Shown: one piece after another, positions 1 to 13,048 of the stretch
Position numbering within the stretch: the first letter of the stretch is position 1
How the letters are laid out: each line of letters begins with the position of its first letter
Source: an uncultured Burkholderiaceae bacterium
Lineage (GTDB): Bacteria; Pseudomonadota; Gammaproteobacteria; Burkholderiales; Burkholderiaceae_B
Direction of reading: 5' to 3'
Length of the DNA stretch: 64,000 nt
Assembly (NCBI GenBank): GCA_934525625.1
Contig: CAKSZL010000006.1
Coordinates: 62,001-126,000, forward strand
Position numbers and translations under genes: made by a program
Notes under the pieces: generated by a model
Told to the model about the DNA's origin: nothing
Seen by the model: only the letters and a program-made list of their open reading frames with translations
Database searches by the model: none

Positions 1-515
1 GGTGGCCCCATTTCCACGCCGGCCTCGCGCAGCGCATGGTTCAGGCGGATGACGAAGTTGAACAGATTGATGTCGTGCTTGACGAACAGATGGTCGGTCA
101 GATCGTCGATGGAAAACGGCTTGAGCGGCGTGGTGGTGATGGGCACCGGCGAATTGGCCGCGATGAAGGCCAGTATCTGCGAGCCCAGATGAAAATGGCG
201 CAAGATGAGCCAGTTGGCCTGCGGGCTGACGTAGCGCTTCAAGCCCCATACTAGCAGGCGATGCAGCACCGCCGAATGCGACCAGCGCTTGGGCAGGAAG
301 GTCTTGATGATCTGGATGACGATGATCAGCGCGCGGCACAGCGGCCGCAGGAAAGGCAGCAGATACTGGCGCGAATTCGAGCTGGAGTCCCGCAGCCAGG
401 CCGTTTTCACATGATCCGGCAGCGGCGTGCTGCGGTCCAGGTACAAGGCCAGCCAGGGGCTGGGGTCGTCGGGGTCGTGGTGGTCGAAACGGAAGTCGGC
501 GGAAGGCTTGCTCAT
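1..515 (-). CDS. Conserved hypothetical protein, N-terminal part (cut by left window edge)
   Basis: An uninterrupted reading frame begins at an ATG whose bases overlap the stop of the upstream ketosynthase fusion (ATGA overlap), so the two are probably translationally coupled. It runs off the left edge after about 171 codons. Third positions are strongly GC-biased, as in real genes here. The visible part is acidic and polar at first (HHDPDDPSPW), then has a hydrophobic stretch around residues 60-75 and a region rich in aromatic and aliphatic residues. I do not recognise the family. It is the last visible gene of a lipid-modification operon, so a role in the same lipid pathway is an inference from context only. 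Confidence 0.75.
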   Translation of the reverse strand, partial: MSKPSADFRFDHHDPDDPSPWLALYLDRSTPLPDHVKTAWLRDSSSNSRQYLLPFLRPLCRALIIVIQIIKTFLPKRWSHSAVLHRLLVWGLKRYVSPQANWLILRHFHLGSQILAFIAANSPVPITTTPLKPFSIDDLTDHLFVKHDINLFNFVIRLNHALREAGVEMGP

Positions 516-2431
516 GCGTCGTGCTCTTTGACGTGCTGGAATTGCATCAGGTAAAGCGCGGCGGTGCGCCGCGCGGTGTCCACGATGGCGCGTTCGGCGC
601 GGCCCTGGCCGTCGCACTCCAGTGCGATGCCGACGGCGGCCAGCCAGCGCGCCAGGTGGTGTTCGTCGTTGTGCCCATGGTATTCCAGGAAGCGGAAGGC
701 GTCCGGCGGCAAGGGCAGGCAGGCTTTCAGCAAGGGCAGCAGCGCGGGCACGATGCGCTGGCCTGTGCCTTCGATGATGTAGATGGCGCCCAGCAGGCCG
801 ATGGGGTCGCGCGTGGCGGCCAGCGCGTGAAGATAGGCGTTGAGCGCTTCGCCGCCCGGATTGCGGCGCAGGTCTTCGACGCGCTCGGCCGCGCCGCCCG
901 CCTGCTTGTAGTCGTTGAACAGAATCTTGAAGTCGTCCTGTTCCTCGCCGGCATGCTGGTTGATCAGCGCGGCCAGCGGGGCGTAGGTGTCCGACAGCGA
1001 AGCCGTGGCTTCGCGCATCCACTTGGCGCCCTCGCGCACCTGCGGTATCCAGTGCGACATCCACTGCACGTAGTCGTCCGTCCGGAAGCGTTTTTCGCGC
1101 AAGGAAAGCACCAGCGGCGTGCGCCAGACGCGCGAGCGGTAATCGTGCCAGATCGTCGCCAGTTCGGTCAGCAGCGGGCCCAGGCCTTGCGGCGCGTGCG
1201 CCGGGTCGTGGGGCGGCGCGATGGCTTCGGCATCCAGCGAAGCGCCGGCTGCAAGGCCAGCCCCGGCCCGGGCGGCTGCGGGCTCACGCGCGCCGTTCGC
1301 GGCGTCTTCCACTTCCAGCAGCATGTAGGCGGTGGTGAAGCGGCCCGATTCGGGAATGTAGCAAAGTATCTGTTCGCCGGGTTGAACCTCGCGCGTTTGC
1401 AGGAACTCGGCCAGCATGATCAGGATGGAAGCCGCGCCCGTGTTGCCGCGCCAGGCCAGGTTGCTGAACCAGTAGGGCTTGGGTATGGACAGCCCGGCCT
1501 TGTCCAGCAGGTCTTCCACCACCGGTATGAATTTCTCCGATGAGTAATGGCACAGGAAGTGGCGGATGCGGCCGGGGTCTACCCATTGGTCGCGCACCAG
1601 TTGCGCGTATTCGTGGATGCCGATGTCGAACAGATGCGGCAGCAAGCGGATGTCCTGGCGCAGCGACAAAGCGCCGTCGGCCTCGGCGTCCGTCCACGAG
1701 GGGTAGTCCAGGTGGCCTTGCTGGCGGTCGTGCGTCAGCCCCAGCTGCATGCACACGGGGTAGTCGCCGGAGAAGGATTTCTGATGGATCCAGCGCAGGC
1801 GCAAACGCCGCCCCGGCAGCATGTCGCCGGGCGCGTCGCGCCGGCCCAGCGTGACCGCGCCCGCGCCGTCGGACAGCATCCAGCGCAGGAAGTGGGCGTC
1901 GAAATCGGCGTCGTAATTGCGCGCCGAGAACCGCGAACGCTTGAACAGCCGCGAAGGCATTTCGCTGGCGACGGCCAGGCCCAGCGCGTGGCCGTCCAGC
2001 TCGACGGCTTGGGCCACCGCCTGGATGGCGCCCACGCCCGCCGCGCAGATGCCGTGCACCGACAGGGTTTCCATCGGCGCGGCCGCCAGTTCACCCTGGA
2101 TCATGTTGGCAAAGCCCGGCATCAGCGTGTCTCCGCCCGACGAGCCGCTGGCCAGCAGCGACACCTGCTCCAGCCCCAGGCCGCCTTTTTCCAGGCAGTC
2201 GTACACGGCGCGCGCGGCCAGCGCGGCATTGCTCATCGTGGTGCCGCCTCGGGCGTCGATGGCGTAATAGCGTTGCTTGATGCCGTTCTCGGCCAATATC
2301 CTTTGCTTGATGCGGCCCGAGATGCGGTTCAGCGGCGCGATGAAAGCGTCCATGCCGGCGTTGTCCACGGGCTCGCCCGGCAGGTGGTAGCCGGCGCTTT
2401 TCAGGTAAACGCGGTCGAAAGCGGTGGGCAT
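512..2431 (-). CDS. FabH-like 3-oxoacyl-ACP synthase III fused to a haem-oxygenase-like diiron (HDO) domain
   Basis: The 639-residue protein has two parts. Residues 1-375 are a thiolase-fold ketosynthase III: the nucleophile is Cys129 in HGICAAG, with candidate His295 (FLCHYSSEK) and Asn330 (WRGNTGAAS) completing a Cys-His-Asn triad. A linker rich in Ala, Gly and Pro (about 378-415) leads to an all-helical domain (about 420-639) with the metal-ligand pattern of the TenA/haem-oxygenase-like iron enzymes: H493/E496/E497, E554 in YIIEGTGQR, and the cluster YHGHNDEHH at 584-592. FabH normally condenses acyl-CoA with malonyl-ACP. HDO enzymes oxidise or decarboxylate acyl chains or amino acids. The gene starts 4 bases after the desaturase stop and overlaps the next gene by ATGA. 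The fusion is unusual and the product is unknown. Confidence 0.82.
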   Translation of the reverse strand: MPTAFDRVYLKSAGYHLPGEPVDNAGMDAFIAPLNRISGRIKQRILAENGIKQRYYAIDARGGTTMSNAALAARAVYDCLEKGGLGLEQVSLLASGSSGGDTLMPGFANMIQGELAAAPMETLSVHGICAAGVGAIQAVAQAVELDGHALGLAVASEMPSRLFKRSRFSARNYDADFDAHFLRWMLSDGAGAVTLGRRDAPGDMLPGRRLRLRWIHQKSFSGDYPVCMQLGLTHDRQQGHLDYPSWTDAEADGALSLRQDIRLLPHLFDIGIHEYAQLVRDQWVDPGRIRHFLCHYSSEKFIPVVEDLLDKAGLSIPKPYWFSNLAWRGNTGAASILIMLAEFLQTREVQPGEQILCYIPESGRFTTAYMLLEVEDAANGAREPAAARAGAGLAAGASLDAEAIAPPHDPAHAPQGLGPLLTELATIWHDYRSRVWRTPLVLSLREKRFRTDDYVQWMSHWIPQVREGAKWMREATASLSDTYAPLAALINQHAGEEQDDFKILFNDYKQAGGAAERVEDLRRNPGGEALNAYLHALAATRDPIGLLGAIYIIEGTGQRIVPALLPLLKACLPLPPDAFRFLEYHGHNDEHHLARWLAAVGIALECDGQGRAERAIVDTARRTAALYLMQFQHVKEHDA

Positions 2432-2435
2432 GGGT

Positions 2436-3374
2436 TCATGTCTCCGGGAAGAGGGATGGCGGGGCGGAGGGCTGGGCCGCCTTCAGGGGCGTGCTGCGAA
2501 AGCGCGGGAGAACGGCGCCCAGCAGGAATACCCGCCCCATGTATGGCAGCAGTCCGGCTTCGTTCAGTTGCGGCGACACGCGGCGCCGGTAGATGCGCCA
2601 ATGCAAAGGTGCCAGTTCGGACCAATGCGCGCGGCTGTGTTCGTGATGCGCGGTGTGATAGCCGATATTGAACAGCAGCGGGTTGACCAGGCCCTCGAAG
2701 TTGCGCGCGTAGTCCAGGCGCGGCTGGCCCAGGCGGCTGGCGCGGCTGCCGTCGGCATGCGCATGCTGCAGATAGTTGGTGGCCAGCAGCCAATGCAGGC
2801 CGTGCAACTGGGGCAGAATCACGTACAGCAGGCCTTTTTGCGCATCCAGCAGCAGCACGCCCAGCCATAGCCCCAGCCACAAGACGTATTGCGCCAGGCA
2901 ATAGCGCCACACGCCGGGCTGGTGGCGGCGCAGCCCTTGCAGCCAGCCGTAGATGTGCGGGTACAGCGCGCCGACGGCCTGCATGGGGTGCAGCAGGTAT
3001 CCCCATAAATGATTCGTGTCGCCGCCGCGAAAGCGGTAGGTGCGCGCGATGTCGCACTCCCCATGTTTATGGCGATGATGGTTGGCGTCGTGGGCGGGCC
3101 AGAACACGCAGGTGGGGTGGCCCTGGCACAGGGTCAGGTAGCAGTCCGTCAGCCGGTTGGCCCGGCGGCCATGCCACATGCGCAAATGGGTGTGGTTGTG
3201 ATGGATGACGCCCACGCCCAGCGTCAGGAACAGCAGCAGTCCGTACAGCAGGTACGAAAAACCATGCGCCCATTGCCAGGCGACGAGGGCCGGGAAAGCC
3301 GCCAGATACAGCAGGCTTTGCAGGTCGCGGCGGTGGCGCAGGCGCGGGAACCAAGGGGTTCGGGGCGTGCTCAT
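2436..3374 (-). CDS. Membrane fatty acid desaturase
   Basis: A 312-residue integral membrane desaturase. The three histidine boxes that hold the diiron site are visible: HHNHTH near residue 58, HDANHHRHKH near 94, and HTAHHEH near 240, between hydrophobic helices such as FSYLLYGLLLFLTLGVGV. The family inserts double bonds into acyl chains at the inner membrane using oxygen and electrons from a carrier; none is encoded in view. The start is the ATG at 3374, overlapping the stop of the upstream hydroxylase (ATGA), which indicates translational coupling. The ketosynthase fusion follows after 4 bases. Substrate and regiochemistry cannot be read from the sequence. A longer open frame through this start is out of frame with the hydroxylase and is not real. 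Confidence 0.9.
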   Translation of the reverse strand: MSTPRTPWFPRLRHRRDLQSLLYLAAFPALVAWQWAHGFSYLLYGLLLFLTLGVGVIHHNHTHLRMWHGRRANRLTDCYLTLCQGHPTCVFWPAHDANHHRHKHGECDIARTYRFRGGDTNHLWGYLLHPMQAVGALYPHIYGWLQGLRRHQPGVWRYCLAQYVLWLGLWLGVLLLDAQKGLLYVILPQLHGLHWLLATNYLQHAHADGSRASRLGQPRLDYARNFEGLVNPLLFNIGYHTAHHEHSRAHWSELAPLHWRIYRRRVSPQLNEAGLLPYMGRVFLLGAVLPRFRSTPLKAAQPSAPPSLFPET

Positions 3375-4156
3375 GGCGGGGCGGCCCTCCCTTGCGCGGC
3401 CTGCTGCGCCATATGCCGGGCGATATGCGGCTGGGCGGCGTCGGCGGTCAGCCGCGTGCGGAACAGGCGGTCCATGAAGGTGAACTGAAAGCCGTAGTTG
3501 CCGTGGTAGCAGGCGTGGTGCAGATGATGCCGGCGGCTGGCGGCGAACCAATGGGCGTACGACACGCGCGGGAAGAAATCGTAGTTGGCGTGGCCCACGC
3601 AATTGAAGAACAGGCTGAATACCGGCACCGACGTCAGCGACCAGAAGCTGAATTCGTGCACCATCATGGGCAGCAGGATGACGTTGCCCAGCATCAGCGC
3701 CTCGATGGGATGAAAGGCGTAGGTGGCGAAGGGCGTGGTTACGACGGAGCGATGATGGGGCGCATGGAAGCGCTTGAGCCAGCGCGTATGCAGCAGGCGG
3801 TGATTGATCCAGAAGTGGATGTCGTTCCAGGCCACCAGCGCGAGTATTTCCAGCGCGATGCGGCCCGCGCTCGCGTGGGGCGTCAGCGTGGCCCAGCCCA
3901 GTTGTATGAGCCCCCACGGGAAGATCATGCCCAGGCCGAAGATCAGGACGGAGACGAAAGACAGGCCGAACTCGCGGCGCAATTGGCCGGGCGCCAGGGG
4001 GCGCGGGTCCAGCGGCCGGCCTATGCCCAGCGCGGGCAGCAGGTGATGCGTCAGCAGCCAGGTGAGCCCGCCGAACAGCAGATAGATGCCGCCGAAGAAA
4101 GCCAGGCCCCACAGCATGATTTCGACGGCGGACAGCGATGCGAAGAGGGCGCCCAC
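3371..4156 (-). CDS. Sterol desaturase / fatty acid hydroxylase superfamily membrane protein
   Basis: About 261 residues with four or more membrane helices and the histidine motifs of the FA_hydroxylase family: HFWINHRLLH, FHAPHHRSV and the C-terminal RRHHLHHACYH. These bind a diiron centre that hydroxylates or desaturates lipids. The upstream gene ends at 4168, and possible starts are TTG at 4171 (overlapping that stop), GTG at 4156 and ATG at 4117. I use GTG 4156, but the TTGA overlap at 4171 would match the coupling style of this operon. The frame stays open far upstream through the helical-repeat gene, but that extension is a GC-rich shadow. The gene ends overlapping the desaturase start. 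Confidence 0.85.
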   Translation of the reverse strand: MGALFASLSAVEIMLWGLAFFGGIYLLFGGLTWLLTHHLLPALGIGRPLDPRPLAPGQLRREFGLSFVSVLIFGLGMIFPWGLIQLGWATLTPHASAGRIALEILALVAWNDIHFWINHRLLHTRWLKRFHAPHHRSVVTTPFATYAFHPIEALMLGNVILLPMMVHEFSFWSLTSVPVFSLFFNCVGHANYDFFPRVSYAHWFAASRRHHLHHACYHGNYGFQFTFMDRLFRTRLTADAAQPHIARHMAQQAAQGRAAPP

Positions 4157-4167
4157 GCCCGCTCCCG

Positions 4168-5526
4168 TCAAGGCGCGGCCTCGTCGCCGGCGTCCAGGCC
4201 GGCCATGCGCGCCGCCATCGCGGCCATCACCATCGCGGCTTGCGCGTCCGGCATCGCGCGCGCAAAGCGCAGCGCGCCGGCATAGTCTTTCCGCAGCGCC
4301 AGCCGGTTCGCGGCGGCGAAGACCGCCAACTCGCGCGTGCCTTCCGCGCCGTCGGCCATGGCCAGTTCGTAGGCATCGTCGGCACGCCCCAGCCTGGCCA
4401 GCTCCGCGGGCGTGTTCATGGCGATCACGCGGATGGCGGGGGTGGTTTGCTTGGCTTGCCTGGATTGCTCCGCCAAAGTCCTGAGTTCGCGCGCGGCGCC
4501 CACCGTATCGCCCATGGCGGCCTGGGCCTTGGCAAGCTCGAACCGCACTCGCATGCGGCTTTCGATTTCCGGCAGATCCTGGGCCTGCTTGCGTACGTCT
4601 TCGAACACGCCTTGGCCTTGTTCGGTTTTGCCGGCCTGGTACAGCAACGCAGCGACTCTGGCCTGCCAAGGCAGGGCCGCCGCGCGTTCGGGTGCTTTTT
4701 CCAGGGCCTTGCGGGCATTGTCCAGCATGCCGGCGGCGGTTTCCCGGCTGGTGCCGGGGGCGGTTGCCGGGCCGGCCCAGACGACGCCCGCATACAGCCA
4801 CGACTGCTCTTCTTCCAGCTCGCGCGCCAGGATGGTCGCGTCGTCGCGCGGCGCCGCGCCGGGGTCGGCCTTGGCCCAGGCCGAATACAGATGGAACAAT
4901 TGTTCGGGCGAGACCGGCATATCGTCTGCGAAGCCTTGGGCGAAGGACGCGCGCGCCAGTTGCGCGGCCTCTTCCCGGTAGCCGATGTCGGCCATGGCCT
5001 GCGCCACTTGCAGCATCAGCGCCAGCATCATGGCGTTCATGGGCATGCCCCGCGTGCGCACTTGGGCAAGCTTGTCCAGCAAGGCCTTGCCTTCCAGCGG
5101 TTCGCCGGCCCGCGCCATCAGCCGCGCCAGCCTCATGTCGGTGCCGGCGTGGTTCAGGCGCTCGACGGGCGTCTGGCTTCCCAGCAGTTCGTTGGCCCGG
5201 CGCAGCGACGCCAGGGCGTCGCGCTTGTTCTCGCGGGTCAGCAGATAAGCGGCTTCGTCCGCCAGGAAAGCCGCCTGTTGCCAGGGTTGCTCCAGTTCGC
5301 CGATGGTGCGCTTGGCTTCGTCCGCCAGGCCGGCCGCCAACTGGGCACGCGCCAAAGACATGCCGATGCGCTGGCGCTCGAAGACGTCCTGAGCGGCTTC
5401 CTGGTAGGCGGCGATTTCGTCGGCCAGGCAGTTGGCGTGGACGGCGTCCGCGCAGGGCGCGGCCCAGAGCCGCAGCGGAAAGCCCAATACCAGCAGCAAG
5501 GCCAGGCAGGTGTGACGGTACGGCAT
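4168..5526 (-). CDS. Secreted alpha-helical repeat (TPR-like) protein
   Basis: From the ATG at 5526 the product is about 452 residues with a clear signal peptide (MPYRHTCLALLLVLGFPLRLWA, shown here only as its span, residues 1-22). An AAGGG ribosome site lies about 10 bases before this ATG, whereas the earlier in-frame ATGs at 5544 and 5628 lack one. The mature protein is a run of Ala/Leu/Arg-rich amphipathic helices with TPR-like spacing and no catalytic motif. Helical-repeat proteins usually scaffold other proteins. Its position as first gene of the lipid operon suggests a periplasmic adaptor or substrate-handling role, which is inference. The stop overlaps or nearly overlaps the hydroxylase start. 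Confidence 0.7.
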   Translation of the reverse strand: MPYRHTCLALLLVLGFPLRLWAAPCADAVHANCLADEIAAYQEAAQDVFERQRIGMSLARAQLAAGLADEAKRTIGELEQPWQQAAFLADEAAYLLTRENKRDALASLRRANELLGSQTPVERLNHAGTDMRLARLMARAGEPLEGKALLDKLAQVRTRGMPMNAMMLALMLQVAQAMADIGYREEAAQLARASFAQGFADDMPVSPEQLFHLYSAWAKADPGAAPRDDATILARELEEEQSWLYAGVVWAGPATAPGTSRETAAGMLDNARKALEKAPERAAALPWQARVAALLYQAGKTEQGQGVFEDVRKQAQDLPEIESRMRVRFELAKAQAAMGDTVGAARELRTLAEQSRQAKQTTPAIRVIAMNTPAELARLGRADDAYELAMADGAEGTRELAVFAAANRLALRKDYAGALRFARAMPDAQAAMVMAAMAARMAGLDAGDEAAP

Positions 5527-5745
5527 GGAAAACAAACCCTTCATGGTTGGAGGACATCTTGGCGGGGATTGTAGGATCGGCCGCGGCGCATGGGCCGGCC
5601 ATGCGGTAACAAAATGGCACGCCTGCATGGTTTCCGGCGTCGGTGTTTACAGTTTGAGACTTTTTGTGCCGGGCCAGAGGCTATCATCATCGGTTGCCGC
5701 GAGCGGGGCCGCCGCGAGTAGCCATGGCAAGAACGAAGGTTGCAT

Positions 5746-7776
5746 ATGTCCAGGGAAGAAGCATATAAGAACATGGCGCAGCCGGCGCCCGGCAGCTCGG
5801 GCGTGACGCTGCGCTGGCCTTGGCTGACCTTGCTGATGACGCTGGCGCTGGTGATCGCCCATGTGTGGATGGCCGGGAAAGCGGGCGGGTATGGGCCTTA
5901 CGACGCCACCACGCTGACCGAGCTGGGCGCCAACGTGGCGCCCTTGTCGGCCACGGGCGACTTCTGGCGCTTGTGGGCCAGCCTATTCCTGCACGAATCA
6001 TGGGGGCATCTGCTGCAGAATGCCGCGGTGCTGCTCATCGTGGGCGCGACGCTGGAATCCCTGACGTCGCGCGGCGTCTGGCTATTCGTATATGCCGTGG
6101 GCGGGCTGTTCGCCGCCTGGATGTCGGCCGTCTGGCATTTCGACTATTCCACGGTTTCGATGCTGGGCGCCGTGCGGCAAATCGTCTACGTCAGCGTGGG
6201 CGCGTCGGGTGCGATACTCAGCTTGGCGGGCGCGGAACTCGTCTTGGCGCTGGCTGTATTTTTGTCGCCGGGCCGCGCCCAGGCAAAAATCGCCGCATTG
6301 GGGAATACCTCGCACGAACACGATACCGCGCGGGCGAGCAGTTTGCTGCGCGGCGCTTTGATGGTGCCGGTGCTGACGCTGGTCTACGGCATGTTCGACG
6401 CCAGCGTGGACAACATCGCGCATGTCGCCGGTTTCGGCTTCGGGCTGGCGGCGGGACTGGCCGTGGCGCTCGTGCACAAGGGTTGGCTGGTATCGGGCGT
6501 GGCCGCGCTCGGCGGGCTGGCGTGCGCCGGCTGGGTTGCATGGGCCGGCTACGTGCGCGTGCATGGCCTGCCCGAACGCGATGCCATACGCGGGATGGCC
6601 GTCACCTTGCAGGACGAGCAGATGGAGGCGCGGCGCCGGGAACAACTGCTGGAGACGGAAGTGCAAAGCCTTCCGCCCGAAGCCACACCCGACGAGGCGC
6701 GCGGCATCGTCATCGCCGAGCCCTTCATCGGCCGCGTCATCCCCACGGCGCAGCCGGGCCGCGTGCAACTGCTCAAGAACTACGACGAAGCCGAGGTCAT
6801 GGAATACGACCTGGAGCAAGGGCGGCGCGTGGCCACCTGGCTCAAGCAGAAGTATCCGGCGGGCAAGACCTGGGGCTGTCCGGCGCCGCAATGCCACGGC
6901 ATAGGCGTGACGGACATGGCGCTGTCTCCCGACCAGAGCAAGGCTTTTTTCAGCAATCTCCAGGCTGGCCGCGTCAGCCGGGTGGACAGGGCGACCGGCA
7001 AGGTGGAGTTCAGCGTGCCTACCGGCAGCTTCCCGGTGCGCCTGCTGGCGCACGAAGGCCGGGTCTACGTCCATGATTGGGTGGATGCGAGCCTGACCGT
7101 GCTGGACGCGCGCGACGGCAAGGTGCTGCAAACCCATCAATTGGATGCCATGGACGAGAACCGTCGCGCCTGGCCGGACGGCGGCACCATGGCGCTGTCC
7201 GCCGATGGGCGGCGCCTGTACGTGGCGAGCCGCCAGGGCAAGGTGACCGTGCTCGACGTCGAGAAAGAGACGACGCAACTGTGGCAGCCCCCGCGGACGG
7301 ACCATGGCAAAGAGCACACCCATCCCCCCGAGCTGGATAGGGTCAGGCGCACAGGCGTGGGGGGCCAAGGCGCGGTGTGGCTGCTACACCCCGACGGCGT
7401 TTCCTATCCCGAAGGCGAAACGCGCCGCCGGCACGTGGTCTACAAGCTGTCCACCACCGGCCGCCCGCCCATGTCTTTCATGCGCGACGCCTATTTGGAC
7501 CTCAGCGGCGAGCACGGCTTGATACTGTTCGTCGTCGACGGCTACGTGCTGGCCAGTTCTTCGCAGACCGGGCAGTTGCTGCGCGTCTACCCGTTGGCTT
7601 TTCCCGAGTCTTCGCTGCTGGTGCTCGACGTGCTGGACGACCGCCGTTTCTACGTGGCGGGCCGCGAGGGCCTGCAGATCTTCGACGTGGACAAGGCGCT
7701 TCGGGTAGACCCGATCGCCACGGACTACCAGCTTCATCTGGATCGCCAGCGCCAGGGCGTGCGCCCGCGCTACTGA
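5746..7776 (+). CDS. Rhomboid-family intramembrane serine protease fused to a C-terminal beta-propeller-like domain
   Basis: The first 260 or so residues are a rhomboid fold: the conserved H-x4-H-L-x2-N segment (HESWGHLLQN, about residues 83-92), the catalytic serine in VGASGAI (near 154) and the catalytic histidine in NIAHVAGFGFG (near 226), each in a predicted membrane helix. After helices at 248-270 comes a soluble region of about 400 residues with repeated strand-turn patterns such as VYVHDWVDASLTVLDARDGKVL and RLYVASRQGKVTVLDV, typical of YVTN/PQQ-type beta-propellers. Rhomboids cleave transmembrane substrates. A propeller would be a substrate-binding or sensing module, by inference. ATG 5746 has GAAGG six bases upstream; TTG 5740 is an alternative. 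It is divergent from the lipid operon with about 220 bases between. Confidence 0.85.
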   Translation: MSREEAYKNMAQPAPGSSGVTLRWPWLTLLMTLALVIAHVWMAGKAGGYGPYDATTLTELGANVAPLSATGDFWRLWASLFLHESWGHLLQNAAVLLIVGATLESLTSRGVWLFVYAVGGLFAAWMSAVWHFDYSTVSMLGAVRQIVYVSVGASGAILSLAGAELVLALAVFLSPGRAQAKIAALGNTSHEHDTARASSLLRGALMVPVLTLVYGMFDASVDNIAHVAGFGFGLAAGLAVALVHKGWLVSGVAALGGLACAGWVAWAGYVRVHGLPERDAIRGMAVTLQDEQMEARRREQLLETEVQSLPPEATPDEARGIVIAEPFIGRVIPTAQPGRVQLLKNYDEAEVMEYDLEQGRRVATWLKQKYPAGKTWGCPAPQCHGIGVTDMALSPDQSKAFFSNLQAGRVSRVDRATGKVEFSVPTGSFPVRLLAHEGRVYVHDWVDASLTVLDARDGKVLQTHQLDAMDENRRAWPDGGTMALSADGRRLYVASRQGKVTVLDVEKETTQLWQPPRTDHGKEHTHPPELDRVRRTGVGGQGAVWLLHPDGVSYPEGETRRRHVVYKLSTTGRPPMSFMRDAYLDLSGEHGLILFVVDGYVLASSSQTGQLLRVYPLAFPESSLLVLDVLDDRRFYVAGREGLQIFDVDKALRVDPIATDYQLHLDRQRQGVRPRY

Positions 7777-7825
7777 TGCGCTGATTCCACAAACCTTGAC
7801 TTTATGCGCCTTCTTGCGTGACGTA

Positions 7826-7870
7826 TTTCTTACCATCGTTATATACTACTAAACATAGCGTTTTATTCTA
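7826..7870 (+). promoter_or_regulatory. AT-rich promoter region of the TonB receptor gene
   Basis: This is a sharp AT-rich island in GC-rich DNA, about 120-160 bases before the receptor start. It contains TTCTTAC at 7827, TATATACTACTA at 7840 and ATTCTAACG near 7865. A similar arrangement (TTCTTAC then TATATCTATTA) occurs on the minus strand before the binding-protein gene at 13048. A match to a canonical Fur box was looked for and not seen. The exact promoter cannot be fixed by eye. Confidence 0.4.
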
Positions 7871-7985
7871 ACGATTGGTTTCAAATGGAAATATGGGGAT
7901 GCGGCTTGCCGCATCATTTTTATGTCTGGAGAAAACCTCGGCATCCGTCCGAGGCATGCATTCCAAAAAAAGTCTGGGGAAACAA

Positions 7986-10112
7986 GTGAAAATTCGACAG
8001 AATCGGCTTAGCCGGGCGCTGAGCCTGGCTGGCGTCTGTGCCATGCTGGGAACAACCGGGGCCGCGCTTGCGCAGCAGAGCAGCGAAGCTGCCAGCGTGT
8101 TCACGCTGGGGACGGTGGACGTTTACGGCGCCAAGGAAAACATCGTCCAGAAATCGGAAACGCGCATCGACCGCGAAGAAATCCAGCTTCTGGAAAAGAA
8201 CGACATCGGCGAGGCGCTCAAGATAGTGCCCGGCGTGCTGTATTCGGCGCCTGGCGGCGGACGCTACGAGTCGACCGTCTCGGTGCGCGGCTACAGCTTG
8301 CGCGAAGTGCCCATCTTCATGGACGGCGTACCCGTCTACATTCCGTACGACGGCTATTCCGACCTGGGCCGCTTCACCACGGCCGACGTCTCCACCATTC
8401 GCGTGGCCAAGGGCTATAGCTCGGTCATGTACGGCCACAACACCATGGGCGGCGTCATCAACATCGTCAGCATGCGGCCGCGTTCCGAACTGGACGTCGA
8501 TGCGACGGCCGGCTTCGGCAGCGGCGGCATGAAGCAGTTGAGCGCCAACGTCGGCACGCTGCAGGACAAATGGTATTTGCAGGCCGGCGTGTCGTACTTC
8601 GAGCGCGATTACGTGCGTCTTTCCGAGAACTTCGTCGGCAAGGAATACACCGGGCGCGACGTCGATTCCGACCGCTACAACTATCACACCCAAGACCGCC
8701 GGGGCAGCGTCAAAATCGGCTTCATTCCCAACGCCACCGACGAATACGTGCTTAGCTACTCGCGCCAGGAAGCCAAGAAATATCCCACCGACGGCGGCGA
8801 CGGCTTCAGGCCCACGCAATGGGAATGGCCGGCCTGGGACCGCGAAACCGTCTCCTTCGTGTCGAACACGCGCTTCCTGAACGACAAGTTTTACATCAAG
8901 CCGCGTATCTACCAAGACAAGTTCAAGAACACCATGGACTGGTGGCGCGGCCAGCCCAAGGGCAGCCACTACGACGACAAAGCCTTCGGCGCGTCGGTCG
9001 AGCTGGGCACCGAGATCATCGACCGCCACGAAATCAAGCTGATGTTCAGCTACAAGAACGAAGAGCACAAGTCCTTCGATACCGACATCTTCACGAACGC
9101 GGTGCTGAACGGCACGCATCAGGTGGTCAAGCAGAAGTTCTACAGCATTGCGCTGGAAGATACCTTCACCATCAACGATCAATGGTCTACCCAACTGGGC
9201 GCCATCTATACCAAGCGCACCGCCGAGGCCATGGGCATAGGTGCGAACACGCGCGACTTCCTGGCTCTGTATCCGCAGAACGGCAACGTGCTGAACCCGG
9301 ACATCGACACCATCGATCCGCAACTGGCCGTGTTCTTCAAACCCTCGCAGGAACACACCTACCGGGCCAGCATCTCGAAGAAGACGCGCTTCCCGTCGTT
9401 CAAGCAGGCGTATTCCAGCTTCGGCGACGAATTCGTCAACTGCCCGAGTAGCATGCCCAATTGCGGCCCCGGCGGCTCCAAGCAGGTGCCCGGCATCGTG
9501 CTGCAGAACCCCGGCCTGAAGCCCGAGCGCGCCATGCACTACGAGTTGGGCTATCAGGGCCGTCCGCTCGAAGGGCTGCACGTCGACGCCAGCATCTACT
9601 ACAGCCGCAGCAAAGACGCGATCAACCGCACGGGCTACGACTTCACGACCTATCCGGGCTTCGCCGTGGACCAAAGCGTGAACGTGCCGGGCATTACCGA
9701 GCGCAAGGGTTTCGACCTGGGCTTGTACTATCAGGCTTCGTCCGAGTTCGGACTGGGCGTGTCGTATGCCTATCTGCACATGCGCAACAAAGACGACCCC
9801 GATTTCCACTTCACCAACATGCCGCGCCACTTCGGCATGGTGTACGCCGATATCCGCCCGACGCACTGGCTGGCCATCGTGCCGTCGGTGGAGTTCCGCA
9901 GCAAGAGCTATGCCGACACCAAGGGCGACAACCGCAACAGCGGCTACGGCATCACGAACCTGAAGTTCGAGCTCACGCCGCCGGCCTGGAAGAACGTCGC
10001 TTTCAACCTGGGCGTGGAAAACCTGTTCAATAAGAACTACCAGGCCTACAACGACCAATACCCCAGCCCCGGCCGCCGCTACTTCGCCAACGTGCGCGTC
10101 AATTACTATTGA
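7986..10112 (+). CDS. TonB-dependent outer-membrane receptor
   Basis: From GTG 7986 the protein is about 708 residues. GGGGA lies seven bases before this start, and the N-terminus becomes a good signal peptide ending ALAQQ; ATG 7956 and the codon at 7875 are in-frame alternatives that would place extra polar residues before it. The plug domain shows the family patterns (IGEALKIVPGV, VSVRGYSLREVPIFMDGVPV, VMYGHNTMGGVINIV), followed by a 22-strand-type barrel and the terminal aromatic signature ANVRVNYY. Such receptors import iron chelates, vitamins or other scarce ligands using TonB energy. The ligand is not evident. A di-haem oxidase and a binding protein lie convergently downstream and may belong to the same uptake system. 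Confidence 0.92.
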   Translation: MKIRQNRLSRALSLAGVCAMLGTTGAALAQQSSEAASVFTLGTVDVYGAKENIVQKSETRIDREEIQLLEKNDIGEALKIVPGVLYSAPGGGRYESTVSVRGYSLREVPIFMDGVPVYIPYDGYSDLGRFTTADVSTIRVAKGYSSVMYGHNTMGGVINIVSMRPRSELDVDATAGFGSGGMKQLSANVGTLQDKWYLQAGVSYFERDYVRLSENFVGKEYTGRDVDSDRYNYHTQDRRGSVKIGFIPNATDEYVLSYSRQEAKKYPTDGGDGFRPTQWEWPAWDRETVSFVSNTRFLNDKFYIKPRIYQDKFKNTMDWWRGQPKGSHYDDKAFGASVELGTEIIDRHEIKLMFSYKNEEHKSFDTDIFTNAVLNGTHQVVKQKFYSIALEDTFTINDQWSTQLGAIYTKRTAEAMGIGANTRDFLALYPQNGNVLNPDIDTIDPQLAVFFKPSQEHTYRASISKKTRFPSFKQAYSSFGDEFVNCPSSMPNCGPGGSKQVPGIVLQNPGLKPERAMHYELGYQGRPLEGLHVDASIYYSRSKDAINRTGYDFTTYPGFAVDQSVNVPGITERKGFDLGLYYQASSEFGLGVSYAYLHMRNKDDPDFHFTNMPRHFGMVYADIRPTHWLAIVPSVEFRSKSYADTKGDNRNSGYGITNLKFELTPPAWKNVAFNLGVENLFNKNYQAYNDQYPSPGRRYFANVRVNYY

Positions 10113-10232: not shown

Positions 10233-11690
10233 TCAAAGCGATTCAAGAAAACGCAGCAGCGCCTCGCGGTCTTCCGCCGCCATTTCCCGCACGGCTTCGC
10301 GGGCCGGCTCGGCTTCGCCGCCGTGCCACATGACGGCTTCCAGCAGGGTGCGGGCGCGGCCGTCGTGCAGAAAGCCGGCGTCGGGGTTGGCGGTTTTCGC
10401 TAGGCCCACGCCCCATAGCGGCGGCGTGCGCCATTCGCGCCCGGCGGCGCGAAAGTCGGGCCGTCCGTCCGCCAGTGCTTCGCCCATGTCGTGCAGCAGC
10501 AGGTCGGTGTAGGGCTGTATGGCCTGGTCGGACAGCCAGGGCAGAATGGCGTCTTTGCGCGTGCGCAGTTCGGGTATGTGGCAGCTGGCGCAGTGGGCCT
10601 GGCGGAATAGCTTTTCGCCGCGCAGCACCTGCGCGTCGTTCACGTCGCGGCGCGCGGGCACCGCCAGCATGCGGTGATAGAACACCGTGGCGGCGAAGTC
10701 GGCGCGCGACAGTTCCGTAGCCTCGGCTTCCGAGGCCCGGCCCGAGGGCGCTTGCCTACAGGCGGCTTGCGCGGCGCTGCAGTTTTCTTCCGGCGACAGC
10801 GGCGTGGTAATGCCCAGGTCGCCCACGAAGGCGTTCGTCACTTGTTCTTCCAGCGTGGCGACGTTGGCCTTGGCGCCGAAGCGGCCTATGGCTTCGCGCT
10901 GGCCCACGGCGTCCCACACGAGGTTGACGCGGCCACGTATGCCGGCGGGCTTGGGCTGGTCTTGCAGGGCAAGCAGGGTGTCGTCCGCGATGGCTTCCAG
11001 CAGGCCCAGGCCATAGACGGCGGGGCCGATGCGCGGCGACACCATGATGTCGTCGCCCAACGGGCCGTAGGCCAGTTCCTTGAAGCGCACGGCGGGTTTG
11101 CGCAGCGCAACCCGCATGCCGTCGGCCAACGTTTCGGTGTGTTCTTCGTACACCAGATAGCCCACGCCTTCGCCAGGCACGCCCGGCACGCCGAATTCGT
11201 TCAACTGGTCGCCATAAGCGGGGTGCGGCTTGGGCCCGCCGTGGGCGTTCGCACCGGGAATGCTCAGGCGCAGCAGCATGGCGCGCATGGCGCCGTGCTC
11301 GTCTTCGGGGGCTTGGCCCCTGCCGTTCCTGGCGTGGCAGGCGATGCACGAGACGCGGTTGTACAGCGGCCCCAGGCCCGTGGCGCTGGAGCGCGCGGGC
11401 GCGATGACCCACGATTGGCGAAACATGGTGCGTCCGGTCGTGAACTCGCTGTTGCGCATCTCCGGCATGGCCGGGCTGGGTAGCGAGTAGGCATCGCGCG
11501 TGTCGTCGAACACCGTGGACAAGCCGCCGCTGAGCGCGGACGCCTCTGTCGCGTAGGCGCTGTTCATACAGAGCAGCAGGGCGGCTGCCGTCAGGCTCAG
11601 GGCGGGCAAGCGGTGCACCCAGGAGCGCTTGCGCGCGGCGTGGCCTATGCGGGCCTTGCCCGCCTTGGTGTCTCTCTCCCGCCGTTTCAC
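10233..11690 (-). CDS. Di-haem c-type oxidoreductase (DHOR / DUF1111 family)
   Basis: A 485-residue exported protein starting with GTG whose bases overlap the stop of the upstream binding-protein gene (GTGA). A basic N-terminus and the hydrophobic stretch LPALSLTAAALLLCM form an export signal ending near AYATEA. Two haem-c sites are visible: CIACH at 115-119, followed by the family-typical RNGRG, and CASCH at 367-371 followed by IPELRT. Together with the length and the C-terminal FLHDGRARTLLEAVMWHGGEAEPAR, which matches the family, this identifies a periplasmic di-haem oxidase or peroxidase-like protein. DHOR genes often sit with iron-uptake genes; here the binding protein precedes it and a TonB receptor converges on it. 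Confidence 0.9.
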   Translation of the reverse strand: MKRRERDTKAGKARIGHAARKRSWVHRLPALSLTAAALLLCMNSAYATEASALSGGLSTVFDDTRDAYSLPSPAMPEMRNSEFTTGRTMFRQSWVIAPARSSATGLGPLYNRVSCIACHARNGRGQAPEDEHGAMRAMLLRLSIPGANAHGGPKPHPAYGDQLNEFGVPGVPGEGVGYLVYEEHTETLADGMRVALRKPAVRFKELAYGPLGDDIMVSPRIGPAVYGLGLLEAIADDTLLALQDQPKPAGIRGRVNLVWDAVGQREAIGRFGAKANVATLEEQVTNAFVGDLGITTPLSPEENCSAAQAACRQAPSGRASEAEATELSRADFAATVFYHRMLAVPARRDVNDAQVLRGEKLFRQAHCASCHIPELRTRKDAILPWLSDQAIQPYTDLLLHDMGEALADGRPDFRAAGREWRTPPLWGVGLAKTANPDAGFLHDGRARTLLEAVMWHGGEAEPAREAVREMAAEDREALLRFLESL

Positions 11691-13048
11691 TGCCGGGCGC
11701 TCCCGGCGCCGGCCTTGGCGGAAATCACTTGCTGCGCGATCTGCACGGCCTGCCGGCGGTTCTGCGCGACCTGTTCCGCCCAGCCGCGCAGCAGCTCGTC
11801 ATTGGCGTTGGGCTTGTCTTCGAATTCAAAGCTGGAGACGAAGCGGCCGGACAGCTCGTTGGCTTGTTCTTGCGTGATGGGCAATCGGGTAATCAGTTCT
11901 CGCGCCTGATCCACCCGGGCCTTCAGTGCGGCGTCGCCGCCGGCGGCTTGCCCGGCCTGCGCCACGGCGTCCAGCGCCTCGCGCAGTTGCGCATGCGGGT
12001 CGGTCACCATGACGTCGTACAGCGCGATGTTCAGGCCCTGGCGCTTTTGCGCCAGCTTGTTGTCGAACTCGAAGGGCATGGCCTGCGCCGCCGCGAAGGG
12101 ATCGTAATAGCCTTCGGGCTTGTCGGCGTAGACGGAAGGGCGCACCGGCAGCCGCAGCATGTCGGGATGGAACAGCAGCTTTTGCGCATCTTCCGAGAGC
12201 GCGTACCGGGTGAAATTCTTGGCGGCCTCAAGGTTGGGGGCGTCTTTGAACACCGCAATGTGCGCGGGCGAGTAACCCGTTATGCCGGGATAGACGAAGA
12301 CGATGGGCGCGCCCTTTTCCATGGCGGGCTTGATGAAGAAGTCCATCGACACGTTGACGGCAACCTGGCCTCGGGAAAGGCTGTTCGTGCTGTTGGGCGC
12401 ATCGTTGGTGGGCGCGCGCGAGTTGGCGCCGACTTGCTGCAGAATGGCCCAGCCTTTTTCCCAGCCATGGCCCTGGGCGATGATCTCGACGAGCGGGGGC
12501 GAAAAGGCGGCGCGGCTGGGCACCGGGAAGGTCAGCTCGTCGCGCCAGCGTGGTTCGGCCAGGTCGGTCCACTGCATGGGCTTGGGCAGGCCTTGCTCGC
12601 GCAGGCGTTCGGTGTTGACGGCGAAACCGAAGCCGGAGATTTCAAACGCCGCATAAAGCAGGTCGGGGTCGGAAACGGGAAAACCGCCCACCTTGGCCGG
12701 CAGCCCCGTCATGTCCACGGGCAGGCGCTGGAAGGCTCCTTGCTGGGCCAGCATGGCGAAGGTGCGCTGCGAAGGCGTCCAGTAGACGTCGACGTGCCCC
12801 GGGTTGTCTTTCAGGTAGTTCATCGCATCGCCTGAACGGCGCCAGATGATCTCGACGCGCGAGCCCGGATAGGCCTTCTCGAACCCGGCCTCGATCAGCG
12901 ACACCACTTCTTCCGGGTAGCTCGTCATGACGACGACTTTCTTGTTCGAGGGCTGCGCCATGGCGGCGTACGCGGCACAGAGCGTCAGCGCGACGGCGAC
13001 GGCAAGGGACGAGAGCAATGAGCGCAAAGAAGCGTATGCGTGTTTCAT
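11687..13048 (-). CDS. Periplasmic extracellular solute-binding protein (family 1-like), orphan
   Basis: The 453-residue protein has a signal peptide ending at AMA-Q (about residues 1-31) and the architecture of the iron(III)/polyamine-type binding proteins: VVVMTSYPEEVV at the start of the mature chain, DVYWTPSQRTFAML, and FGFAVNTERLREQGLPKPMQWTDL, a signature of that family. The C-terminal 80 residues are an extra helical segment not usual for the family. No importer permease or ATPase is adjacent, since the next gene is an exporter-type ABC protein. It is co-translated with the di-haem oxidase. Ligand unknown; an iron or chelate role is an inference from the TonB receptor nearby. Confidence 0.85.
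   Translation of the reverse strand: MKHAYASLRSLLSSLAVAVALTLCAAYAAMAQPSNKKVVVMTSYPEEVVSLIEAGFEKAYPGSRVEIIWRRSGDAMNYLKDNPGHVDVYWTPSQRTFAMLAQQGAFQRLPVDMTGLPAKVGGFPVSDPDLLYAAFEISGFGFAVNTERLREQGLPKPMQWTDLAEPRWRDELTFPVPSRAAFSPPLVEIIAQGHGWEKGWAILQQVGANSRAPTNDAPNSTNSLSRGQVAVNVSMDFFIKPAMEKGAPIVFVYPGITGYSPAHIAVFKDAPNLEAAKNFTRYALSEDAQKLLFHPDMLRLPVRPSVYADKPEGYYDPFAAAQAMPFEFDNKLAQKRQGLNIALYDVMVTDPHAQLREALDAVAQAGQAAGGDAALKARVDQARELITRLPITQEQANELSGRFVSSFEFEDKPNANDELLRGWAEQVAQNRRQAVQIAQQVISAKAGAGSARQ

Follow-up and report, generated by a model that had tools for sequence, protein, structure and literature searches.

A ketosynthase joined to a heme-oxygenase-like domain, and its DUF6999 partner, in a conserved gene module of an uncultured Burkholderiaceae bacterium

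What chemistry might call for a ketosynthase and a heme-oxygenase-like (HDO) domain in a single polypeptide, and which genes belong with it? The question is raised by an operon of five genes at the left edge of a 64,000-nucleotide stretch of DNA from an uncultured Burkholderiaceae bacterium (contig CAKSZL010000006.1, positions 62,001 to 126,000), which we refer to as the window. The original prediction described a FabH-HDO fusion with intact metal ligands, acting with a membrane desaturase, a hydroxylase and a secreted helical protein to produce an unusual lipid. Our results partly confirm the observation and partly support its interpretation. The fusion belongs to a biosynthetic module that is real, widespread though not common, and apparently undescribed, and its product is probably a lipid-like compound. 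The features of the operon are as follows.

4168..5526, minus strand, ATG at 5526 (or 5544): secreted helical protein with a signal-peptide-like start
3371..4171, minus strand, TTG start: FA_hydroxylase superfamily membrane protein (PF04116)
2436..3374, minus strand: FA_desaturase membrane protein (PF00487)
512..2431, minus strand: ketosynthase-HDO fusion, 639 residues
1307..2431, minus strand: StlD/DarB-like ketosynthase domain of the fusion, residues 1-375 (NF005293, NF053539, 5GK0)
2045..2047, minus strand: putative ketosynthase active-site Cys129, in a triad with His295 and Asn330
1202..1306, minus strand: interdomain linker, variable in length and sequence (alignment of 29 sequences)
512..1201, minus strand: HDO domain, residues 411-639 and the stop codon
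932..955, minus strand: HDO helix with H493, E497 and D500, with E-x-x-D replacing E-x-x-H
770..772, minus strand: E554, predicted HDO metal ligand (80/80 fusions, 120/120 listed HDO relatives)
656..679, minus strand: HDO motif H-x3-D-x2-H with H585, D589 and H592 (80/80 fusions, 120/120 listed HDO relatives)
1..515, minus strand: DUF6999 protein, truncated by the window edge (PF22523)

Transcription would run from the secreted protein through the FA_hydroxylase, the FA_desaturase and the fusion to DUF6999. The stop of the secreted-protein gene overlaps the TTG start of the hydroxylase gene in TTGA; ATGA overlaps join the hydroxylase to the desaturase and the fusion to DUF6999, and four bases separate the desaturase from the fusion. 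These contacts are as originally described, the ATGA between fusion and DUF6999 being an additional one. Among named relatives, a Pusillimonas (Mesopusillimonas) protein comes closest to the fusion (83%).

To define the conserved set we kept the best 80 of 245 fusion relatives in genome contigs, all of them full-length fusions, searched their surroundings by tblastn at E 1e-5, and counted genes lying no more than 4.5 kb from where the ketosynthase starts. In 78/80 of these loci the order hydroxylase, desaturase, ketosynthase, HDO, DUF6999 was retained on one strand, a linkage that exceeds chance, and the hydroxylase, the desaturase and DUF6999 were each found in 79/80. Two loci depart from the pattern. 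L001 (9149-11926, plus strand) lacks a desaturase between hydroxylase and fusion, so that this lineage manages without the enzyme, and in L080 neither the hydroxylase nor DUF6999 was found. Outside the set, the surrounding genes vary between groups of loci. The membrane enzymes themselves are members of their families: the hydroxylase matches PF04116 with 75.9 bits (cut-off 31; 5e-21) and retains 14 His positions in 77-79 of 79 aligned rows, and the desaturase matches PF00487 with 75.9 bits (cut-off 29.7; 5.5e-21) and retains 18 in 78-79. The proposed neighborhood of five genes therefore stands for four of them, the two membrane enzymes included, but not for the secreted protein. The latter was present in 0/80 related loci, matched no Pfam or NCBIfam family over cut-off, and is rejected as an operon partner; it is really present in the window but lies outside the conserved set.

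A wider survey separates core from addition. We looked for DUF6999 in evenly drawn samples, one of 398 genomes from the phylum and two of 369 and 289 genomes from single classes, a few genomes being drawn twice. Matches came in 9/398, 7/369 and 6/289, which makes 19 distinct genomes or about 2% of those searched. We examined 18 of the 19, leaving out G450 and its three partial matches; in 17 of the 18 a ketosynthase and an HDO adjoin DUF6999, fused in 8/17 and as separate open reading frames in 9/17. The exception, L109 of genome G470, carries DUF6999 at 9138-10034 (minus strand) close to transposase-like reading frames; neither a ketosynthase nor an HDO was found in the 10 kb or so around it. 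Both membrane enzymes lie beside 5/8 fused copies; of the others, G001 has the hydroxylase only, G320 the desaturase only and G417 neither. At E 1e-4 neither enzyme was found beside the nine separate copies, two of which are on contigs shorter than 6 kb. Adjacency in 17/18 genomes, with the membrane enzymes found beside fused copies only, defines ketosynthase, HDO and DUF6999 as the core. DUF6999, which the original prediction did not single out, is thus a constant partner, and the desaturase and hydroxylase look like an addition to the core; in Burkholderiales the ketosynthase and HDO are fused and the membrane pair is added.

The module occurs in Achromobacter, Bordetella, Variovorax and Alcaligenes and on a Pseudoalteromonas plasmid, and relatives of the HDO bear names from Colwellia, Shewanella and Halomonas. 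Among 14 control genomes DUF6999 was found in one, Caulobacter vibrioides. The DNA of the window has no close plasmid relatives by megablast, and in a protein search one of 72,556 plasmids covered most of the fusion. Three loci, L100 (11809-12375, minus strand), L110 (2623-3189, plus strand) and L112 of the Pseudoalteromonas plasmid (11436-11993, plus strand), encode a His-rich membrane protein of 185-188 residues directly upstream of the ketosynthase, in the place of the desaturase and hydroxylase. It has no Pfam match over cut-off, and the L112 copy no NCBIfam match either; possibly this is a di-metal oxidase of the membrane, so far undescribed, that replaces the two enzymes. In L099 the module adjoins a 1133-residue protein combining major facilitator superfamily, acyltransferase and AMP-ligase parts (5724-9125, minus strand), a type of protein found beside 1/6 modules of that class, one of the six being on a contig shorter than 6 kb.

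Which ketosynthase is this? The FabH identity was rejected, since the TIGR00747 score is 42 bits where the cut-off is 292.1, and a separate FabH gene over cut-off was found in 3/4 module genomes tested. PF08541 is matched with 28.7 bits (cut-off 26.6). The domain scores 302.3 bits with the StlD/DarB family model NF005293 (cut-off 450) and 234.5 bits with the DarB model NF053539 (cut-off 550), and none of eight module genomes exceeds the latter cut-off. Among solved structures it finds StlD (5GK0) at 4.4e-55 as a single sequence and at 1.2e-111 as a profile of seven module ketosynthases; with this profile StlD scores 376.7 bits, the next molecule 90.9 and CorB 29.5, and the entries that we take to be OleA score at most 47.7. 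C129, H295 and N330 are kept in 80/80 loci and align with the triad of StlD, in agreement with the Cys-His-Asn triad first proposed.

When 23 rows were placed in a tree with FabH as outgroup (three sequences), the module enzymes, StlD, the DarB-like rows and a Streptomyces enzyme formed one group apart from FabH (100/100), within which StlD and two Bacteroidota enzymes make up their own clade (95/99). The six fused ketosynthases also form one clade (100/100), consistent with a single fusion event. The tree does not resolve the base of the larger group and so does not establish that the module ketosynthases as a whole are one clade. Taken together, profiles, alignment and tree indicate a divergent StlD/DarB-like enzyme. 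The homologue P0092 carries the name "PQB biosynthetic 3-oxoacyl-[acyl-carrier-protein] synthase III", a phrase that we did not find in the papers checked and regard as an unsupported label. A ketosynthase of the same superfamily is encoded on a Streptomyces plasmid (L124, 5703-13027, plus strand) together with an acyl carrier protein (ACP), an FAD monooxygenase, an SCP2 protein, FabF and a P450.

The C-terminal domain is an HDO by two measures: it matches PF14518 (Haem_oxygenas_2) with 42.7 bits against a cut-off of 28.9, and its structure model adopts a heme-oxygenase-like fold. Among solved folds, 3DDE and CADD come nearest to it by VIA-align (26.4 and 24.4), above UndA; SznF was not among the best 50 structure matches listed, from which we conclude nothing. 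The fusion and the family of its second half are thus as predicted, but the ligands are not intact in the canonical sense, since Asp takes the place of one His. E-x-x-D stands at the E-x-x-H place in 80/80 fusions and 119/120 listed HDO relatives, whereas HDOs of other clusters have E-x-x-H in 5/5. Apart from one Glu, the candidate metal ligands are invariant among the 120 relatives listed. The exchange predicts a site of two histidines and four carboxylates (2H/4C), or a 3H/4C site if the invariant nearby H493 binds. By its sequence the domain does not fit the 3H/3C subgroup (three His, three carboxylates, E-x-x-H). It is probably an O2-activating, iron-dependent oxidase, and the residues named are candidate ligands. 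A different HDO cluster, with an AMP-binding protein, an HDO and a short-chain dehydrogenase/reductase (SDR), is present on plasmids (L125, L126, L129, L130); a "thermostable hemolysin" is annotated in 3/4 of these, the fourth stretch ending earlier, and a tetratricopeptide repeat (TPR) protein in 2/4.

DUF6999 matches PF22523 with 242.2 bits over the 158 of 275 positions that lie inside the window, and Pfam scores of the other copies scanned range from 162.6 to 321.9 (cut-off 27 in each case). Identity falls to 24-30% in the most distant copies, yet 12 polar residues are kept in 13/13 more distant and 120/120 close copies: D27, R49, R106, H107, N121, H147, D148, D199, N225, D230, H271 and E276 in the numbering of P0276. 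Such conservation resembles that of an active site, perhaps one that binds a metal. The predicted structure consists of helices throughout (mean predicted local distance difference test score, pLDDT, 82.2). A remote HDO identity found no support (hhalign probability 0.1, with a shallow alignment of Neff 1.7), there were no significant sequence relatives in the PDB, and the family, for which no function is described, is not mentioned in the open-licence literature searched.

We interpret the module as a conserved biosynthesis of lipid or polyketide type, and infer its substrates, product and reactions by analogy. Ketosynthases of the DarB/StlD kind join a beta-ketoacyl thioester to an acyl or enoyl thioester. 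Expression of darB with darA is reported to yield a dialkylresorcinol (PMC3992019), and in Pseudomonas chlororaphis mutants of either darA or darB fail to produce any (PMC6403133). By analogy, an acyl group would be loaded on Cys129 and condensed with a beta-ketoacyl thioester to a beta-dicarbonyl, which may cyclize to a 1,3-cyclohexanedione as with StlD and DarB. The tethered HDO would then use O2 to oxidize the condensation product, by dehydrogenation or aromatization or by hydroxylation, and so take the place held elsewhere by DarA or another partner. DUF6999 may act on, or hold, the same intermediate, and the desaturase and hydroxylase would tailor the alkyl chains. As the HDO is the partner fused or adjacent to the ketosynthase, oxidation of the condensation product is its simplest role. 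The idea of condensation followed by oxidation thus survives from the original prediction, and we hold this scheme tentatively, as somewhat short of probable.

A broader proposal is more doubtful still, although we consider it possible: that the module represents a new 2H/4C class of HDO oxidase, working with a StlD/DarB-like ketosynthase and with DUF6999 as a second metalloenzyme on a new lipid class in Burkholderiales, marine Gammaproteobacteria and a further group, probably alphaproteobacterial. This ligand set is otherwise known from ferritin-like diiron enzymes, and three His, four Asp and one Glu are among the residues invariant in DUF6999.

Four other explanations should be weighed against oxidation of a cyclized condensation product. 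In the first, two acyl chains would be condensed without cyclization, as by OleA or a pyrone synthase, and the HDO would hydroxylate or cleave the diketone. This reading gains from the ketosynthase scores below both StlD/DarB cut-offs and from the lack of resolution at the base of the tree; we consider it unlikely, as StlD stands well ahead of every other solved relative and CorB and the presumed OleA entries score far lower. Alternatively, the HDO could act before condensation, desaturating or hydroxylating an acyl thioester for use by the ketosynthase. Ferritin-like diiron desaturases and monooxygenases typically have a 2H/4C site, and the fusion would allow channeling either way. However, a membrane desaturase is already present in 79/80 loci, and there was no evidence of acyl-ACP docking, which makes this order of events a distinctly weak candidate. 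The ligand range of the ferritin-like class extends from 4C/2H to 1C/9H, according to a review (PMC13108848).

The alkene-forming route suggested at first, in which the ketosynthase would make a beta-keto acid and the HDO, like UndA, would oxidatively decarboxylate the acyl chain to an alkene or methyl ketone, is not specifically favored. To our knowledge StlD/DarB-type ketosynthases release no simple beta-keto acids, 3DDE and CADD outscore UndA in the fold comparison, and the E-x-x-H pair is replaced in the module, so that we judge it improbable. A structural or binding domain that lost its oxidase activity with the His-to-Asp change would explain the missing canonical His, but is very improbable, since the replacement is still of ligand type and almost invariant, as are the other candidate ligands, and in an inactive site these residues should have drifted.

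In agreement with the original statement that no such pathway was known, we found neither a described pathway for this gene set nor a described product in the open-licence literature searched, whether on the whole combination, on DUF6999, on ketosynthases with an HDO or on StlD/DarB. The module pairs an enzyme forming C-C bonds with a probable O2-activating enzyme in a single chain, it offers a direct route to asking what DUF6999 does, and its natural His-to-Asp ligand swap gives a means to study what directs the chemistry of HDOs.

Around the operon, the window encodes a rhomboid with a PQQ-like domain (5740-7776, plus strand), a TonB-dependent receptor (7875-10112, plus strand), a di-haem oxidoreductase (10233-11690, minus strand) and an extracellular solute-binding protein (11687-13048, minus strand). 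No sigma-70-like promoter was found in 5300-5900, and no tRNA or non-coding RNA at gathering scores in the window.

How, then, does the module compare with known systems? The ketosynthase resembles StlD and DarB in that these are its best relatives along its whole length, with the catalytic Cys-His-Asn aligned; it differs in scoring below both curated cut-offs and in being fused in one lineage. Its neighbors are an HDO and DUF6999, with no recognized DarA, although no search was aimed at DarA. As to the oxidase, the review names 3H/3C and 3H/4C ligand sets and a mononuclear variant for HDOs (PMC13108848). The module HDO has only the fold in common with UndA. Its relative 3DDE (Sden_3740 of Shewanella denitrificans), titled a domain of unknown function, has His and not Asp in the column of D500. 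From the heme-oxygenase-like di-metal oxidases such as UndA, CADD, HrmI and SznF the module differs by E-x-x-D in the place of E-x-x-H, with a predicted 2H/4C site, or 3H/4C with H493.

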